Origin: Desmonostoc geniculatum HA4340-LM1
Lineage (GTDB): Bacteria; Cyanobacteriota; Cyanobacteriia; Cyanobacteriales; Nostocaceae
Direction: 5' to 3'
Assembly: GCA_019359545.1 (NCBI GenBank)
Contig: JAHHHB010000003.1
Span: 124,001 to 188,000, forward strand
DNA: 64,000 bases
Below are positions 13,338 through 20,152 of the stretch, piece after piece. The position numbers were made by a program, and so were the translations under genes. The notes under the pieces are model-generated. The model was given only the letters and a program-made list of their open reading frames with translations, searched no databases and had not been told where the DNA came from. Every line of letters starts with the position of its first letter. Position 1 is the first letter of the stretch.

Positions 13338-14297
13338 ATGCGGATTGCTAAAGACGTAACAGAACTTATTGGACGAACTCCTTTAGTTGAACTGAACAAA
13401 ATTCCTCAAGCTGAAGGAGTAGTAGCAAGAATAGTTGTCAAACTCGAAGGTATGAACCCGGCGGCTTCAGTGAAAGACCGCATTGGCTTAAGTATGGTAC
13501 TCTCGGCAGAAGCAGAGGGTTTAATTGAGCCAGGAAAAACCATTTTAGTAGAGCCTACCTCAGGTAATACAGGAATTGCTCTAGCAATGGTAGCAGCGGC
13601 GCGGGGCTACGATTTAATTTTGACAATGCCGGAAACCATGAGCCATGAACGACGGGCTATGCTCAGAGCTTATGGTGCATCTTTGGAGTTGACACCGGGG
13701 GCTGAGGGGATGCGGGGAGCAATTCGCAAAGCCGAAGAAATTGTAGCGAATACTCCCAATGCTTTGATGCTGCAACAATTCCGCAACCCCGCCAATCCCA
13801 AAATTCACCGCGAAACCACCGCTGAAGAAATTTGGGCGGATACAGACGGGGAAGTGGATATCGTCATTGCGGGAGTAGGTACTGGTGGGACGATTACTGG
13901 GATTGCAGAGGTAATTAAAAGCCGCAAACCGAGTTTTCAGGCGATCGCAGTTGAACCCAGCAACAGCCCAGTCCTCTCAGGCGGTGAAGCCGGGCCCCAT
14001 AGAATTCAAGGCATTGGCGCTGGTTTTGTCCCCGATGTTCTCCGCTTAGAATTAATTGATGAAGTAATTAGAGTCAGCGACGAACAAGCGATCGCATTTG
14101 GGCGACGCATAGCAAAAGAAGAAGGTTTATTATCTGGAATATCCTCCGGTGCAGCTTTATGCGCCGCCATTCAAGTAGGTAAACGTCCAGAAAATGCCGG
14201 ACGTTTAATCGTGATGATTCAGCCTTCCTTCGGCGAACGCTACCTCAGCACACCCATGTTTCAAGACTTATCCTTAGAAACTGCCGGCGTCCGTTAA
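13338..14297 (+). CDS. cysK: Cysteine synthase A
   Basis: O-acetylserine sulfhydrylase makes cysteine from O-acetylserine and sulfide using PLP. The 319-residue protein shows the PLP lysine in [11 protein letters not shown] (Lys46), the substrate loop TSGNTG (74-79) and the phosphate-binding [10 protein letters not shown] region (about 175-184). Length and motifs are normal for the family. A ribosome site TAGGAG precedes the ATG by 8 bases. It faces the nitrogenase-associated gene on the other strand and is separated from it by a hairpin repeat; its place beside nif-related genes suggests a cysteine supply for Fe-S cluster work, which is inference. Confidence 0.95.
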
Positions 14298-14350: not shown

Positions 14351-14881
14351 CTAATGGCTAGAGCTGCCTTGCTTTTGGTGTTCTTCACCATGATGCTTAC
14401 AGCCACCTTGCTGATGATGATGATGATTGCGATCGCCACTGTGGGAGCAGCCTTGCAAATCCTGGTTCATCAGATTTTCGCTCATTTCTCGGAAGGATTC
14501 ATCCACAGGCTTTAAGCCAATCCAAGCATCAATCTTTTCAACCTCAAATCCTACTTCACGGCGTAGGCTTTGCCCACCGGAGGTATCGCTTACTTCTAAC
14601 AAAGGACGGCGAATCAACAGCGGATCTTGCAACATCTGCACCAAAGCAGTTTGGGCATCAATTTTTTCCGGAACTATCTCACCAGATTTTACTCGTGGGG
14701 CGGAACGATTAAACCATTCGGCTACGGGGCGATCGCCAAAAAATGAACGCAACCGTTCAACTGTCCAAGGTTCTGTTAGCAAATTGTACTCTACCACCTC
14801 ATGACCAGCAGCTGTGAGCAAAACTTTTTGCTTAGTACCACCTTTACAGCCTGGTTTTCCATAAAAAATTACTCTTGCCAT
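14351..14881 (-). CDS. Nitrogenase-associated protein, ArsC/Spx-like
   Basis: The 176-residue protein has a thioredoxin-fold ArsC/Spx-like N-terminal domain: MARVIFYGKPGCKGGTKQK, with a single cysteine at residue 12 in the place of the ArsC catalytic Cys, and FFGDRPVAEWFNRSAPRVKSG. This is the 'nitrogenase-associated protein' family found near nif genes. The C-terminal 35 residues are histidine-rich (HSGDRNHHHHQQGGCKHHGEEH), suggesting metal binding. Its biochemical role is unknown; the family name rests on genomic association. It points toward cysK and lies downstream of the cupin gene on the same strand. Confidence 0.88.
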   Translation of the reverse strand: MARVIFYGKPGCKGGTKQKVLLTAAGHEVVEYNLLTEPWTVERLRSFFGDRPVAEWFNRSAPRVKSGEIVPEKIDAQTALVQMLQDPLLIRRPLLEVSDTSGGQSLRREVGFEVEKIDAWIGLKPVDESFREMSENLMNQDLQGCSHSGDRNHHHHQQGGCKHHGEEHQKQGSSSH

Positions 14882-15007: not shown

Positions 15008-15619
15008 TTAAAAATTCTTAGCCTTATGGGTAAGAAAGTCAAACTCAAATCTTTCTTTTGGATCGGTTTCACCGTAAACATTAAAAGTCACAGTTGGTTC
15101 ATTACCCAGTGCTTCTACACAGTGAATTGCATCGGGAGTAAAGCTGATAATATCTCCTGGAGACAGAATTATTTCTCCCGTACATTCAATTTTGTCTTGA
15201 GATTCTGAGCTATGAGTGCGTTGCCAAAAAGTATTTTTTTCCTGACCTTTTAACACCGCCACTACTCCCCACGTCCCGTGATTATGAATAGTCGATCGGG
15301 TTCCCGGTGCAAATGTTACTGTTTGCACAGTCAACGGAAAACCCAATTCATCATATAGGAGTAAAACAGAGGTTCCCGTTTTCGGAGAAGGTTCTAAATG
15401 CTGACTCCGCACCCAGTAGGAATTGACGAACAAGCGCCTGACGAGCATCCGAATTTCCGGCAAACAACTTGATTCATCTTCCACACTATTGAGAACATCT
15501 TCCACCTCAGTTAAAAACCGATAAACGCGGTAATTATCCCTCAATAAATCCCATGCTCTCACAGATTTACAGGCTTGATACTGACCGTCTCCCGTTACCA
15601 GCCAATCCCTACCTTTCAT
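15008..15619 (-). CDS. Cysteine-dioxygenase-like cupin protein
   Basis: The 203 residues match the thiol dioxygenase (cysteine dioxygenase type I) cupin fold. The iron ligands are visible as H112 and H114 in TIHNHGTWGVVAVLKGQE and H166 in DAIHCVEA. Enzymes of this family oxidise a small thiol such as cysteine or 3-mercaptopropionate with O2 to a sulfinate. Whether cysteine is the substrate here is not shown by sequence. Its ATG lies 5 bases after the stop of a 53-codon ORF, so the two are probably coupled. Cupins of this kind accompany cox2/nif-related genes in heterocystous strains. Confidence 0.85.
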   Translation of the reverse strand: MKGRDWLVTGDGQYQACKSVRAWDLLRDNYRVYRFLTEVEDVLNSVEDESSCLPEIRMLVRRLFVNSYWVRSQHLEPSPKTGTSVLLLYDELGFPLTVQTVTFAPGTRSTIHNHGTWGVVAVLKGQEKNTFWQRTHSSESQDKIECTGEIILSPGDIISFTPDAIHCVEALGNEPTVTFNVYGETDPKERFEFDFLTHKAKNF

Positions 15620-15624
15620 AACTT

Positions 15625-15786
15625 TTAAAATCTCATTTGAGAAGATTGAATGACAACGATCGGTGAAATATTAGGAAGACTGCCTACAGGTGGTGTAGTA
15701 GGTATGTAAATCGGAGGAAAGATAGGGTTATTATTACTCGCAGTTCCTAAGAGAGAGTAAGACGAAGTAGATAACCAATTGTTCAT
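15625..15786 (-). CDS. Possible 53-residue small protein upstream of the cupin gene
   Basis: A short open frame starts at an ATG at 15786 with a ribosome site AAGGTGA about 7 bases before it, and stops 5 bases before the cupin start. The product begins MNNWLSTSSYSLLG and continues with a proline-rich, uncharged middle (NPIFPPIYIPTTPPVGSLP) and a hydrophobic end (SPIVVIQSSQMRF). It has almost no charged residues. The good ribosome site and tight coupling argue that it is translated. I do not recognise it; a peptide partner or substrate of the cupin, or a leader peptide, are possibilities. Confidence 0.55.
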   Translation of the reverse strand: MNNWLSTSSYSLLGTASNNNPIFPPIYIPTTPPVGSLPNISPIVVIQSSQMRF

Positions 15787-15810
15787 GAGTCTTCACCTTG
15801 ATTGAAAAAG

Positions 15811-15910
15811 GGGGAGTGGGGAGTGGGGAGTGGGGAGTTAGGAGTTAGGAGTTAGGAGTTAAGAATAATTCTCCCTCATCTCCCTCATCTCCCTCATCTC
15901 CCCACTCCCC
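15811..15910. repeat. Composite heptamer repeat block (left copy)
   Basis: Ordered tracts of GGGGAGT, then TAGGAGT, then CTCCCTCAT, then CCCCACT-type heptamers. The block begins with G-rich and ends with C-rich copies, so it can fold back on itself. It is the inverted counterpart of the block at 16421-16525; together they bracket the helical-repeat gene. Confidence 0.85.
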
Positions 15911-15919
15911 ACACATTAA

Positions 15920-16405
15920 TTAATCGTCTTCTTCTGCCGGACGTGTCAAAATATCCAGGAGAATTCCGGCTCCAAAATCATGCTTTTCGTCTATCTCTTT
16001 GACTCTGGCGCTGATTTCTTTTGCCTCGTCTATTGCTCCTAACTTTGCTAGAACCAATCCAGAAGCAGCATAGGCATTCAAGTACAATCGAATTTGTGGG
16101 TCTTCTTTGCGATTGACTAATATCGGCTGAAGTTGCTCCCACTCGTCAGGTAATTTTTCTAGTTCTTTAATTTTATCTAATAATTTGATTGTTGTTTGTA
16201 GTGCAAGAGAATAATTATTTTTATAGTAGAAAAATCTATATGCTGCTACCAAAACATCTGTATTTTCACCAGTTTTGGCTAAGGCTTGTTGAATATATTT
16301 TTCCGATTCTGATGTATTTTCCCAGTTTTGTGCTGCTAGAATCAATAAATTTTTGACATCATCAGGAACTTGAAACCATGAGAATTTATTTGTATTGACT
16401 TGCAT
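15920..16405 (-). CDS. TPR-like helical-repeat protein
   Basis: A 161-residue all-helical protein. Pairs of helices such as SESEKYIQQALAKTGENTDVLVAAYRFFYY and YSLALQTTIKLLDKIKELEKL, then LYLNAYAASGLVLAKLGAIDEAKEIS, look like degenerate tetratricopeptide repeats. The ATG at 16405 has a good ribosome site (AGGAG, 7 bases upstream). It is in the nif/cox2 neighbourhood between ctaE and the small ORF/cupin pair, where it may scaffold a complex. The gene is bracketed by inverted heptamer-repeat blocks. Confidence 0.75.
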   Translation of the reverse strand: MQVNTNKFSWFQVPDDVKNLLILAAQNWENTSESEKYIQQALAKTGENTDVLVAAYRFFYYKNNYSLALQTTIKLLDKIKELEKLPDEWEQLQPILVNRKEDPQIRLYLNAYAASGLVLAKLGAIDEAKEISARVKEIDEKHDFGAGILLDILTRPAEEDD

Positions 16406-16420
16406 AATTAACTCCTGAAT

Positions 16421-16525
16421 GGGGAGTGGGGAGTAGGGAGATGAGGGAGATGAGGGAGTGAAAATAATTCCTAACTCTTAACTCCTAACTCCTAACTCCT
16501 AACTCCCCACTCCCTACTCCCCACT
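16421..16525. repeat. Composite heptamer repeat block (right copy)
   Basis: The block reads GGGGAGT, AGGGAGATGAGGGAG, an AATAATT spacer, then CCTAACT and CCCCACT heptamers. This is the reverse-complement order of the block at 15811-15910, including the central AATAATT/AATTATT spacer. It separates ctaE from the helical-repeat gene. Confidence 0.85.
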
Positions 16526-16530
16526 CACTT

Positions 16531-17127
16531 TTAAAACAGTGTAAGAATGTACACCAAAGTGAAAAGAACAATCCAAATAATGTCTACGAAGTGCCAGTAA
16601 ATTTCTGCCATTTCGATGAAGGTGTGATTTGTTGCAGAATATTGACCGGGACGGCGCGATCGCCACAACACAGCTAATATGAATAACAGTCCCACAAAAA
16701 CGTGTAAACCGTGGAATCCTGTCATCAAATAAAAGCAGTTGGCGAAGACATTGGTAGTCAGACCATATCCTAAAGTTGCGTACTCATAAGCCTGACCAAT
16801 CAAGAAAATTGCTCCCATGATGGCGGTAATTGTGTACCACAGTTGCATTCCCTTGACATTATTCTTTTTAATCGCCGTATCGCCGAAGTGAATCACGAAA
16901 CTGCTAGACACCAGAATAATGGTGTTAATCGTCGGCAACAATAACTCTACTTCTGTTCCTTCCGGAGGCCAAACAGCTGTAGTGCCGCGGAAAAACAAAT
17001 AGGTGGCAAAAAATCCGCCGAACATCAGGGATTCAGAGACGAGGAATGTTAACAGTCCCCAAACTCTTAAATCTGGATGTTCTTCGTGATGTCCTGCGCT
17101 TTCATGTTCTGTTGTAGCTATAGTCAT
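16531..17127 (-). CDS. ctaE: Cytochrome c oxidase subunit III
   Basis: Subunit III of the aa3-type oxidase, an integral membrane protein of the respiratory chain. From the ATG at 17127 (MTIATTEHESAGHHEEHPD) it has 198 residues; the frame is open to 17193 but that extension is repeat-derived. Five or so membrane helices are visible, with typical motifs FFATYLFFRGTT, FYLMTGFHGLHVFVG and EIYWHFVDIIWIVLF. It is third in the ctaC-ctaD-ctaE order on this strand. With patB/cnfR and fdxB alongside, it corresponds to the heterocyst-type cox2 cluster of Anabaena. Confidence 0.95.
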   Translation of the reverse strand: MTIATTEHESAGHHEEHPDLRVWGLLTFLVSESLMFGGFFATYLFFRGTTAVWPPEGTEVELLLPTINTIILVSSSFVIHFGDTAIKKNNVKGMQLWYTITAIMGAIFLIGQAYEYATLGYGLTTNVFANCFYLMTGFHGLHVFVGLLFILAVLWRSRRPGQYSATNHTFIEMAEIYWHFVDIIWIVLFTLVYILTLF

Positions 17128-17184
17128 AGATTTCTTGACAATATTACCCGTTGCGTGTGTTTTTAAACGCAGAGGAACGCAAAG

Positions 17185-17272
17185 TAAACGCAAAGGTACG
17201 CAGAGAATTTACTAAGTGCTAACGAATAACTTTGCGCTCCTCTGCGCTATACTCTGCGCCCCTTTGCGTTTA
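17185..17272. repeat. Inverted repeat in the ctaD-ctaE spacer
   Basis: TAAACGCAAAGG-type sequence at 17185-17205 is matched by its reverse complement at 17252-17272 (19 of 21 positions). Transcribed, it would form a stem in the cox mRNA between ctaD and ctaE. The repeat belongs to the dispersed CGCAAAGGCGCAGAG family also found between hyp genes. Confidence 0.75.
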
Positions 17273-17305: not shown

Positions 17306-18979
17306 CTAAACACTAGCTTCCGGTGTCCCTGCTGGCTGCACTTCAGTACTATGACCATTGCCGTAGTCATAAGGGCCATGAGTGACAACTGGCAACACTT
17401 CCCAGTTTTCAATGGCTGGTGGTGAGCTAGTTGTCCATTCTAGGGTCAAAGCTTGCCAAGGATTATCACCTGCCTTGGGTCCCTTCAACCAACTTTGAAT
17501 AATGTTGATGGCGAAGGGAATTACTGATATCCCCAAAACAAATGAACCAAAGGTACAAATTTGATTGAGGTCGATAAATTGGGGGTCATACATTGCTACT
17601 CTTCGTGGCATTCCTTTCAAACCCAATTCGTGCATGGGTAGGAAAGTTAAATTCGTGCCGATGAAGGTGAGGAAAAAGTGAATGCGTCCCCAGGTTTCAT
17701 TCAACATCCGTCCGGTCATTTTGGGGAACCAGTGATAAATACCGGCGTAAATGCCAAACACGGAACCGCCAAACAGAACGTAGTGGAAATGTCCTACCAC
17801 ATAATATGTGTCGTGGACGTGAATATCAAAGGGGGCTGTTCCCATTGTCACGCCGCTTAAGCCGCCCATGACGAACATCGATAACAAACCAATGGCGAAA
17901 AGCATGGCGCTGGTGAAGCGAATCTTACCACCCCAAAGGGTAGCAACCCAGCCGAAAATCTTCACGCCAGTGGGAACGGCAACAAGTAAGGTGGAGATGG
18001 TGAAGAACATCCGCATCCAACCGGGTGTACCGCTGGTAAACATGTGGTGTACCCAGACGAATAAACCGACGACGCAGATGGCTACACTGGAATAAGCGAT
18101 CGCTTTATAACCAAAAATTGGCTTCCGCGCATGTACTGGAATCACCTCCGACATAATGCCGAAGATGGGCAGAATCATTAAATATACTGCCGGGTGAGAA
18201 TAAAACCAGAACAAGTGTTGATAAATAACAACGTTACCGCCTGCATCTGGTTTAAAGAAGGAGGTGCCCAAGTTGAGGTCAAACAACAGCAGAATTAAAC
18301 CCGCTGCTAATACAGGTGTGGAGAGAAGCGCCAGAATGGAGGTTGCCAAGATTGCCCAGCAAAACAGGGGTACTTGATCCCATTTCATGCTGGGAACCTT
18401 CATCATCAAAATGGTGATCACAAAGTTCAGTGAACCCAAAATTGAAGAAGTTCCCACCAAAACGATCGCTAATATCCACATAGTTTGAGCTATTGGTGCT
18501 GTCACCAAGCTCAAAGGTGGGTAAGCTGTCCAACCTGATTGCGAACCGCCAAACAGGAAACTACCTAATATCAGCGCACCTGCTGGTGGGTTTAACCAAA
18601 AGGCGATCGCATTCAGCTTCGGGAAAGCCATGTCCCTAGCACCAACCATCAAAGGTACCAAAAAGTTACCAAATCCCCCAATGGCACTGGGGACAATCCA
18701 CAGGAAGATCATAATCGTCCCGTGGTTGGTCATGAAAGCGTTATACAGATTGGGGTCGAGTAAATCTGCATCAGGTGTTGCTAATTCGGCACGAATAGCG
18801 ATCGCCATCAATCCGCCGATGAGATAGAACACAAACGCCGTCACAAGATATTGAATACCAATAACCTTGTGGTCAATGTTAAATGTGAAATAATCCTGCC
18901 ACTTCCACGCTTGTTGATGAGAGGTGTGGGCGATCTTCTCTTCTGGTGGAGTGTTGGGTGGAAATTCTACCTGTGTCAT
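17306..18979 (-). CDS. ctaD: Cytochrome c oxidase subunit I
   Basis: The catalytic subunit with haem a and the haem a3-CuB centre, which reduces O2 to water and pumps protons. The 557 residues show about 12 membrane helices and the CuB histidine motifs WFYSHPAVYLMILP and VWVHHMFTSG, plus GHFHYVLFGG with the haem ligands. Length is normal. Start MTQVEFPPNTPPEEK is the first ATG. Spacers on both sides contain inverted repeats. In a nitrogen-fixing cell the enzyme would help keep O2 low. Confidence 0.97.
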   Translation of the reverse strand: MTQVEFPPNTPPEEKIAHTSHQQAWKWQDYFTFNIDHKVIGIQYLVTAFVFYLIGGLMAIAIRAELATPDADLLDPNLYNAFMTNHGTIMIFLWIVPSAIGGFGNFLVPLMVGARDMAFPKLNAIAFWLNPPAGALILGSFLFGGSQSGWTAYPPLSLVTAPIAQTMWILAIVLVGTSSILGSLNFVITILMMKVPSMKWDQVPLFCWAILATSILALLSTPVLAAGLILLLFDLNLGTSFFKPDAGGNVVIYQHLFWFYSHPAVYLMILPIFGIMSEVIPVHARKPIFGYKAIAYSSVAICVVGLFVWVHHMFTSGTPGWMRMFFTISTLLVAVPTGVKIFGWVATLWGGKIRFTSAMLFAIGLLSMFVMGGLSGVTMGTAPFDIHVHDTYYVVGHFHYVLFGGSVFGIYAGIYHWFPKMTGRMLNETWGRIHFFLTFIGTNLTFLPMHELGLKGMPRRVAMYDPQFIDLNQICTFGSFVLGISVIPFAINIIQSWLKGPKAGDNPWQALTLEWTTSSPPAIENWEVLPVVTHGPYDYGNGHSTEVQPAGTPEASV

Positions 18980-18984
18980 ATTTT

Positions 18985-19190
18985 TGTCCTTTGTCGTTTG
19001 TCATTTGTCATTTGTTGTTTGTCGTTTGTCGTTTGTCCGTTGTCATTTGCCTTTCGTCTTTTGTCTGTTGTCATTTGTCCGTTGTCATTTGTCATTTACT
19101 AATGACCAATGACTAATGACCAATGACTAATGACCAATAACTAATGACCAATAACTAATGACCAATGACTAATGACTCATGACTACTGAC
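18985..19190. repeat. Octamer tracts in the ctaC-ctaD spacer
   Basis: TTTGTC(A/G/C)T repeats fill 18985-19098 and TAATGACCAATGAC repeats fill 19098-19190. The two tracts are roughly reverse-complementary, so the spacer could form a long imperfect stem. The same family appears at 12246-12350 and 21978-22075. Confidence 0.8.
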
Positions 19191-20152
19191 TTTAGAGTTG
19201 CAGCACTAATCCCCATATCATGGATATGAGGGGCGAGAAACTCTGACGTTGATAACTCAACAGGGTTAATTGCAACGACTTGATGCTGCTTTTGAGCAAC
19301 TTGGTTTTCTGTCAACCAGGTTTGATATTCTTCTGGTGTGTGGACAATTACCTGTGTCCGCATTGAGCCGTGATAACCACCGCACAATTCAGCACAAACT
19401 ACAGGATATGCACCTGGTTTGGTGGCGACAAATCGTAGTTCGGTGGGAATTCCGGGAAGCGCATCTTGCTTCAGGCGGAAGTTTGGCACCCAAAATGAGT
19501 GAATTACATCGTCTGCTGAAAGGTTGAGTTGCACATCAGCACCGACGGGAACGTGCAATTCCCCAGAAGTAATGCCACTTTCAGGATAGTTAAATATCCA
19601 AGCATACTGTATGCCTTTGACATCAACAACTAAGTCAGCTGGTTTGCCTTGGGTTTTAGGAGACGCGCCAATTCCAATTGTTGGGGCAATTGTTGGAGCT
19701 GTTGTTGCTTCGGCGGTATCATTTAGAGTAGCTGCAAGAGCGGTTCCACTCATATGATTAACATGAGCTACTGAATGGGGATGACCCGCAGGTTCAAAGC
19801 CTCCCATACGGTTAAAAACATCTACACTGTAGATGCCCAAACACACAACAATAACTGTTGGAATTGCTGTCCAAAAAATTTCTAAAGGCAAGTTGCCTTC
19901 CACTGGTAAGCCATCGGTGTCATCTCCTCGACGCCGACGATACTTAACCAAAAAAATCACAATTGTTCCTTCTACTACTAAGAAGAGAGCGATCGCAATG
20001 GTAAACATAACGTTGAAAAAACCGTCTACCAAAGGCGCTTGTTGCGATGCTTGTTCCGGTAGTAGAGTGTGGTTTTGACCAATCCAAATGCTAATTGCTG
20101 TGACTACTATCCCAGCAACCAGAGTCCATAGTGAAACAGGAACTTGTTGCAT
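19169..20152 (-). CDS. ctaC: Cytochrome c oxidase subunit II
   Basis: Subunit II accepts electrons from cytochrome c (or plastocyanin) at the CuA site. The 327 residues have an N-terminal membrane anchor, a second helix (VMFTIAIALFLVVEGTIVIFLV) and the periplasmic/lumenal cupredoxin domain. The CuA motif CAELCGGYHGSM (about residue 252) is complete, so this is a cytochrome c oxidase and not a quinol oxidase. An alanine/threonine-rich loop (about 130-165) separates the helices from the cupredoxin core. It is first in the operon and follows fdxB by about 660 bases. Confidence 0.96.
   Translation of the reverse strand: MQQVPVSLWTLVAGIVVTAISIWIGQNHTLLPEQASQQAPLVDGFFNVMFTIAIALFLVVEGTIVIFLVKYRRRRGDDTDGLPVEGNLPLEIFWTAIPTVIVVCLGIYSVDVFNRMGGFEPAGHPHSVAHVNHMSGTALAATLNDTAEATTAPTIAPTIGIGASPKTQGKPADLVVDVKGIQYAWIFNYPESGITSGELHVPVGADVQLNLSADDVIHSFWVPNFRLKQDALPGIPTELRFVATKPGAYPVVCAELCGGYHGSMRTQVIVHTPEEYQTWLTENQVAQKQHQVVAINPVELSTSEFLAPHIHDMGISAATLKSVVMSH

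Follow-up and report, generated by a model that had tools for sequence, protein, structure and literature searches.

The small RG(S/T)GR peptides PatS and PatX come from genes of heterocystous cyanobacteria that are often missed (PMC7761841), and a proteogenomic study of PCC 7120 reports 26 novel genes (PMC8557916). Although the cox2/nif run of these organisms has received much attention, standard annotation seems to have overlooked a conserved gene within it.

The genes alr2517, alr2518 and alr2520 are listed among those common to N2-fixing cyanobacteria. The tags alr2517 and alr2518 are consecutive in PCC 7120, and the TPR-like, cupin and nitrogenase-associated proteins of N. punctiforme carry consecutive GI numbers (PMC2821919), so that no protein is listed there between alr2517 and alr2518. 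In a sigma-factor mutant of PCC 7120, alr2517, the upstream neighbour of the gene described here, falls together with coxB2A2C2 (PMC4390870), and in another strain alr2520 falls strongly together with cox2B/cox2A (PMC7065334); both observations fit co-expression with cox2. A literature search by locus tags turned up no work on either the peptide or alr2518.

A small open reading frame between a TPR-like gene and a cupin gene

We examined a 53-codon ORF in a 64,000-nucleotide stretch of Desmonostoc geniculatum HA4340-LM1 DNA (the window). A preliminary description of the window had located this ORF correctly and given no strand; it lies on the minus strand, with its ATG at 15786-15784 and its TAA stop at 15627-15625. 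A plus-strand reading of 15625-15786 is ruled out by three stops within the interval. In minus-strand order, coxB2, coxA2 and coxC2 are followed by the TPR-like gene, the peptide gene, the cupin gene and a gene for a nitrogenase-associated protein (Table 1), with a CnfR/PatB-like gene near this run, in agreement with the nif/cox2 island originally proposed as the setting.

Table 1. Features of the cox2/peptide/cupin run, in minus-strand order (window positions)
Feature	Position	Strand	Remarks	Sequence or model
Cytochrome c oxidase subunit II (coxB2 by position)	19169..20152	-		TIGR02866
Cytochrome c oxidase subunit I (coxA2 by position)	17306..18979	-		TIGR02891
Cytochrome c oxidase subunit III (coxC2 by position)	16531..17193	-
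TPR-like helical-repeat protein (alr2517 type)	15920..16405	-	161 aa; upstream of peptide
Shine-Dalgarno-like motif	15793..15799	-	6 nt ahead of peptide ATG; window sequence, not generally conserved	AAGGTGA
Small-protein gene	15625..15786	-	53 codons + TAA; conserved, codon-level purifying selection	MNNWLSTSSYSLLGTASNNNPIFPPIYIPTTPPVGSLPNISPIVVIQSSQMRF
Gap, peptide stop to cupin ATG	15620..15624	-	5 nt; 5 nt in 62/78 homologs
Cupin, thiol-dioxygenase-like (CDO/3MDO superfamily)	15008..15619	-	203 aa
Nitrogenase-associated protein (ArsC-like)	14351..14881	-	downstream of cupin	TIGR01616

The peptide was first characterized as almost uncharged and proline-rich with two hydrophobic ends. Its composition bears out the former, with 8 prolines among 53 residues and R52 as the single charged residue. 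The hydrophobic portion is the C-terminal third, whereas the N-terminal end is mixed, so that only one of the two ends stands as described. The best 19-residue hydropathy mean, ~1.0, indicates no transmembrane-like stretch. The ribosome-binding site, initially judged good, is real in the window but not conserved, as an SD-like motif precedes the peptide start in 21 of 78 homologs.

Since 39 ORFs of at least 40 aa overlap the surrounding 8 kb, many of them spurious, frames of this size are common by chance, and a single genome cannot decide whether this one is a gene. That abundance, together with the lack of a match in Pfam, NCBIfam and the PDB, is what could be said for a chance ORF without a selected product. 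This reading is refuted by the conservation tests below (over many genera the frame is kept, selection is purifying and indels stay in frame), which leave it next to no probability.

Several other features of the neighbourhood deserve mention. Two G-rich/C-rich short-repeat hairpins (15811-15912 and 16418-16527), with repeat units like GGGGAGT, TTAGGAG and CTCATCTCC, flank the TPR-like gene, one on either side. The hairpins are inverted copies of each other, with 51-nt arms that are 98% complementary; the pair has the look of a dispersed repeat, and might allow the TPR-like segment to invert or might alter mRNA stability. Rfam matches in the spacer were to microRNA models, far under gathering scores, and are caused by the repeat hairpin. 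Beyond the nitrogenase-associated gene, a cysteine synthase A gene (cysK, 13338-14297, plus strand) adjoins and converges on the nitrogenase-associated and cupin genes, possibly linking the thiol dioxygenase to cysteine supply.

The peptide is conserved across the core Nostocaceae

Using the cupin as query to fetch the loci of relatives, we found the ORF intact, in the same frame and at the same place, in 30 of 30 same-genus loci, the window's own locus included. A profile search recovered the peptide in 51 of the 53 genomes of the genus; the remaining two assemblies are 72% and 85% complete and have no full cupin match. A broken or unconserved frame in relatives that keep the cupin had been named as the outcome that would count against a gene, and within the genus the frame is kept wherever the locus is present.

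Beyond the genus, the peptide is found in at least 120 of 218 genomes of the family and at least 24 of its 56 genera. The genome count is a lower bound, because a profile built from more members found additional homologs. All 13 genomes of genus g99 carry it, and many other genera of the Nostocaceae have more distant homologs, with identity down to ~25-40%. Every well-supported homolog that we inspected lies directly upstream of the cupin gene, and the TPR gene, where mapped, lies just upstream of the peptide. In a profile search of 291 genomes of the phylum, the peptide was found only within the Nostocaceae. A few weak matches (G280, G386 and G087:C119; E 0.003-0.01) fell in other families or at a distance from the cupin; none has a cupin close by, and we took them as chance.

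Homologs are 48-58 aa long and differ in length always by whole codons (78 of 78). They begin with MN(N/S)(W/F), continue through a proline-rich middle in which the Pro-Pro positions differ from clade to clade, and in most cases share the C-terminal pattern P-P-hydrophobic-P-Q-S-S-Q-L (SPPhhhLPQSSQL); P38 is near-invariant (55 of 57 members). In several lineages (L123-L129, L131, L132, L153 and L154) the peptide ends 4-6 residues early at a near-identical place (LPKYS*, LPKY* or LPRFS*), and these early ends apparently arose more than once. In several genomes the matches were flagged as containing a stop, but these are not decayed genes: on inspection the ORFs end 4-6 residues early, or the search had read on beyond their stop. 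Family-wide, genomes have either an intact ORF or a clean absence, and we saw no decayed copy.

The preliminary description had called for a comparison of synonymous-biased changes, and these are evident. Counted pair by pair among members of the genus, the peptide has pS 0.32 and pN 0.13 (median omega 0.33), compared with a pairwise omega of 0.18 for the cupin. Codon-model likelihoods computed on cupin trees agree, with a maximum-likelihood omega for the peptide of ~0.3 in the genus and ~0.28 in other genera, against ~0.2 for the cupin; fixing omega at 1 costs 37 log units in the genus and 148 in the other genera. The low omega, the rejection of omega = 1 and the whole-codon length changes show that the amino-acid sequence is what is kept. 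On these comparisons, we consider it almost certain that 15786-15625 on the minus strand encodes a genuine protein. This is a nearly uncharged, proline-rich peptide that is under purifying selection at the amino-acid level and restricted to the core Nostocaceae, and we file it as a new family among conserved, missed small proteins.

Origin and loss of the peptide

Mapped onto a cupin tree, the presence of the peptide needs five changes, against a mean of 32 when presence is shuffled. This distribution is consistent with a single gain in the common ancestor of the core Nostocaceae (Nostoc, Anabaena, Sphaerospermopsis, Fortiea, Komarekiella and others) and a few later losses, one set within Dolichospermum/Anabaena, part of which lacks the peptide, and another in G064. 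How many gains and losses there were is not firm, because the tree is a quick one with many weak forks.

In lineages without the peptide (Fischerella, Cylindrospermum and others), the cupin follows directly on the TPR gene or is separated from it by unrelated spacer sequence. A search for peptide remnants at the TPR-cupin junction of these relatives found no decayed copy. Faster cupin evolution after peptide loss was not seen in the Dolichospermum group, so the peptide is not strictly needed.

The cupin neighbour is related to thiol dioxygenases

By position and product, the cupin corresponds to the alr2518 type of PCC 7120. The only Pfam match above the cut-off is the generic Cupin_2 model. 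In the PDB, the protein comes closest to cysteine, mercaptosuccinate and 3-mercaptopropionate dioxygenases (1e-10 to 1e-7; phmmer 1.3e-10 against 6xb9). Among cupin homologs, HNH is invariant, within a conserved HNHGTWG, as is a later third histidine. These matches support the cupin as a CDO/mercaptopropionate-dioxygenase-like protein with a predicted 3-His metal site, and with it the early label of a thiol-dioxygenase-like gene.

Two further cupin loci were noted. In L077 (genome G019) the cupin is split over two frames (residues 1-81 and 75-203) behind an intact upstream peptide, reflecting either a frameshift or an assembly error. A second cupin of the same family, with 55% identity (L078; G000:C11:4395-4997), lies elsewhere in the genome, downstream of a thioredoxin-like ORF, and is without a peptide.

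Likely translational coupling to the cupin

The peptide stop lies 5 nt ahead of the cupin ATG at 15619, as originally described, and the same distance separates the two genes in 62 of 78 homologs. An SD-like motif precedes the cupin in 2 of 78. The close stop and the rarity of a cupin SD make translational coupling from peptide to cupin likely in most species. Other distances, 15-21 nt in several lineages and 30, 61 or 171 nt in others, imply that such coupling is not obligatory.

This arrangement invites the view, raised in the preliminary description, that the ORF is a cis-acting leader whose translation steers ribosomes to or from the cupin start by termination-reinitiation or proline-dependent pausing, the peptide being a by-product. 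Both the spacing and the near-constant lack of a cupin SD favor it, as does the proline-rich sequence, since Pro-Pro motifs can slow ribosomes. In relatives that lack the peptide, moreover, the TPR stop can lie 2 nt before the cupin start or overlap it, so that coupling of the cupin to an upstream ORF looks ancestral. A leader of this kind does not readily account for an omega of ~0.3 over more than 50 codons with many synonymous changes, for a spacing that varies up to 171 nt, or for Pro-Pro positions that shift between clades. The window sequence, furthermore, folds no better than shuffles (z = +0.82), which leaves an attenuator reading unsupported. Together with the several relatives that have the cupin without the peptide, these observations weaken the leader interpretation, and we regard it as unlikely.

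A possible partner of the neighbouring proteins

Neither Pfam nor NCBIfam held a model that matched the 57 members beyond one weak, chance-level match, and the peptide profile matched no PDB chain. AF2, run with 57 sequences, gave the peptide no secondary structure (pTM 0.17), a result that fits a disordered chain, though AF2 cannot prove disorder. By this modelling, the peptide is probably a disordered, proline-rich small protein. The window peptide has no cysteine, and 77 of 78 homologs likewise have none; its suggested role as a substrate of a Cys-directed dioxygenase, through Cys oxidation, is therefore unlikely.

Because coupling is not obligatory, the RNA fold does not exceed shuffles and the AF2 model is unstructured, we prefer a trans-acting small protein that binds the product of a neighbouring gene. 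The peptide would be made in heterocysts from the same transcript as cox2 and the cupin, and its translation would usually feed that of the cupin. The extended, unstructured chain might then bind a neighbour, which is the least certain step. The first candidate target would be the translationally coupled, thiol-dioxygenase-like cupin and the second the TPR-like protein, as the TPR fold is a common peptide binder. The TPR-like protein itself is modelled as antiparallel helix pairs (pLDDT 90); its top PDB matches are TPR proteins, peptide-binding ones included, at E 0.002 or worse, and its match to Pfam TPR_8 is below the cut-off. Contact might be made through the conserved ends, MNN-W/F... and ...SPPhhhLPQSSQL, although the extreme C-terminus is not an essential contact, given that the last 4-6 residues are absent in several lineages. 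Binding could tune or localise the enzyme in the micro-oxic heterocyst. That the TPR gene and the cupin both occur without the peptide counts against a partner role, and we infer such a role with confidence that is evenly poised at best.

The peptide might instead be a small accessory protein that serves the heterocyst cytochrome oxidase, or nitrogenase protection more broadly, and has no more than an operon in common with the cupin. Its gene follows coxB2A2C2 on the same strand, and cox2 is heterocyst-specific in PCC 7120 (PMC5943405). The immediate and constant partner of the peptide, however, is the cupin rather than the cox genes; the peptide has no transmembrane-like stretch, and it is missing from several relatives that have the TPR and cupin genes. 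We find this reading improbable. A lineage-restricted small protein, co-expressed with the cox2/nif genes and acting as a partner of the cupin or the TPR protein, is in our estimation the best explanation overall, with an equal chance of proving right or wrong. More speculatively, and with rather low expectation, the peptide may be the founder of a family of small, disordered subunits peculiar to this lineage. Such subunits would regulate a thiol dioxygenase of the heterocyst, or anchor it, and so link O2/thiol chemistry with the cox2-nif programme; they would have arisen in the core Nostocaceae ancestor, possibly de novo in the TPR-cupin spacer.

Whatever its role, the peptide gene would also have been affected in any mutant with a disrupted alr2517, alr2518 or spacer. 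The peptide is a concrete and cheap target for work on heterocyst small proteins and for explaining what a thiol dioxygenase does in nitrogen-fixing cells.

Comparison with known systems

Like upstream leader ORFs with translational coupling, the peptide gene is a short ORF whose stop lies a few nucleotides before an SD-less next gene. It differs from them in its amino-acid selection, in having no RNA structure above chance and in a spacing that is not strictly kept. It resembles PatS and PatX in being a small, missed gene of a heterocystous cyanobacterium. Unlike theirs, its product and the homologs do not contain RG(S/T)GR; the gene sits inside the cox2/cupin run, and we found no family link. 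Solved thiol dioxygenases are, to our knowledge, single-gene proteins for which no co-encoded small, proline-rich partner has been described. The cupin encoded here resembles the cysteine, 3-mercaptopropionate and mercaptosuccinate dioxygenases in sequence and shares the HxH and later His of these 3-His enzymes, while forming a subfamily of its own.
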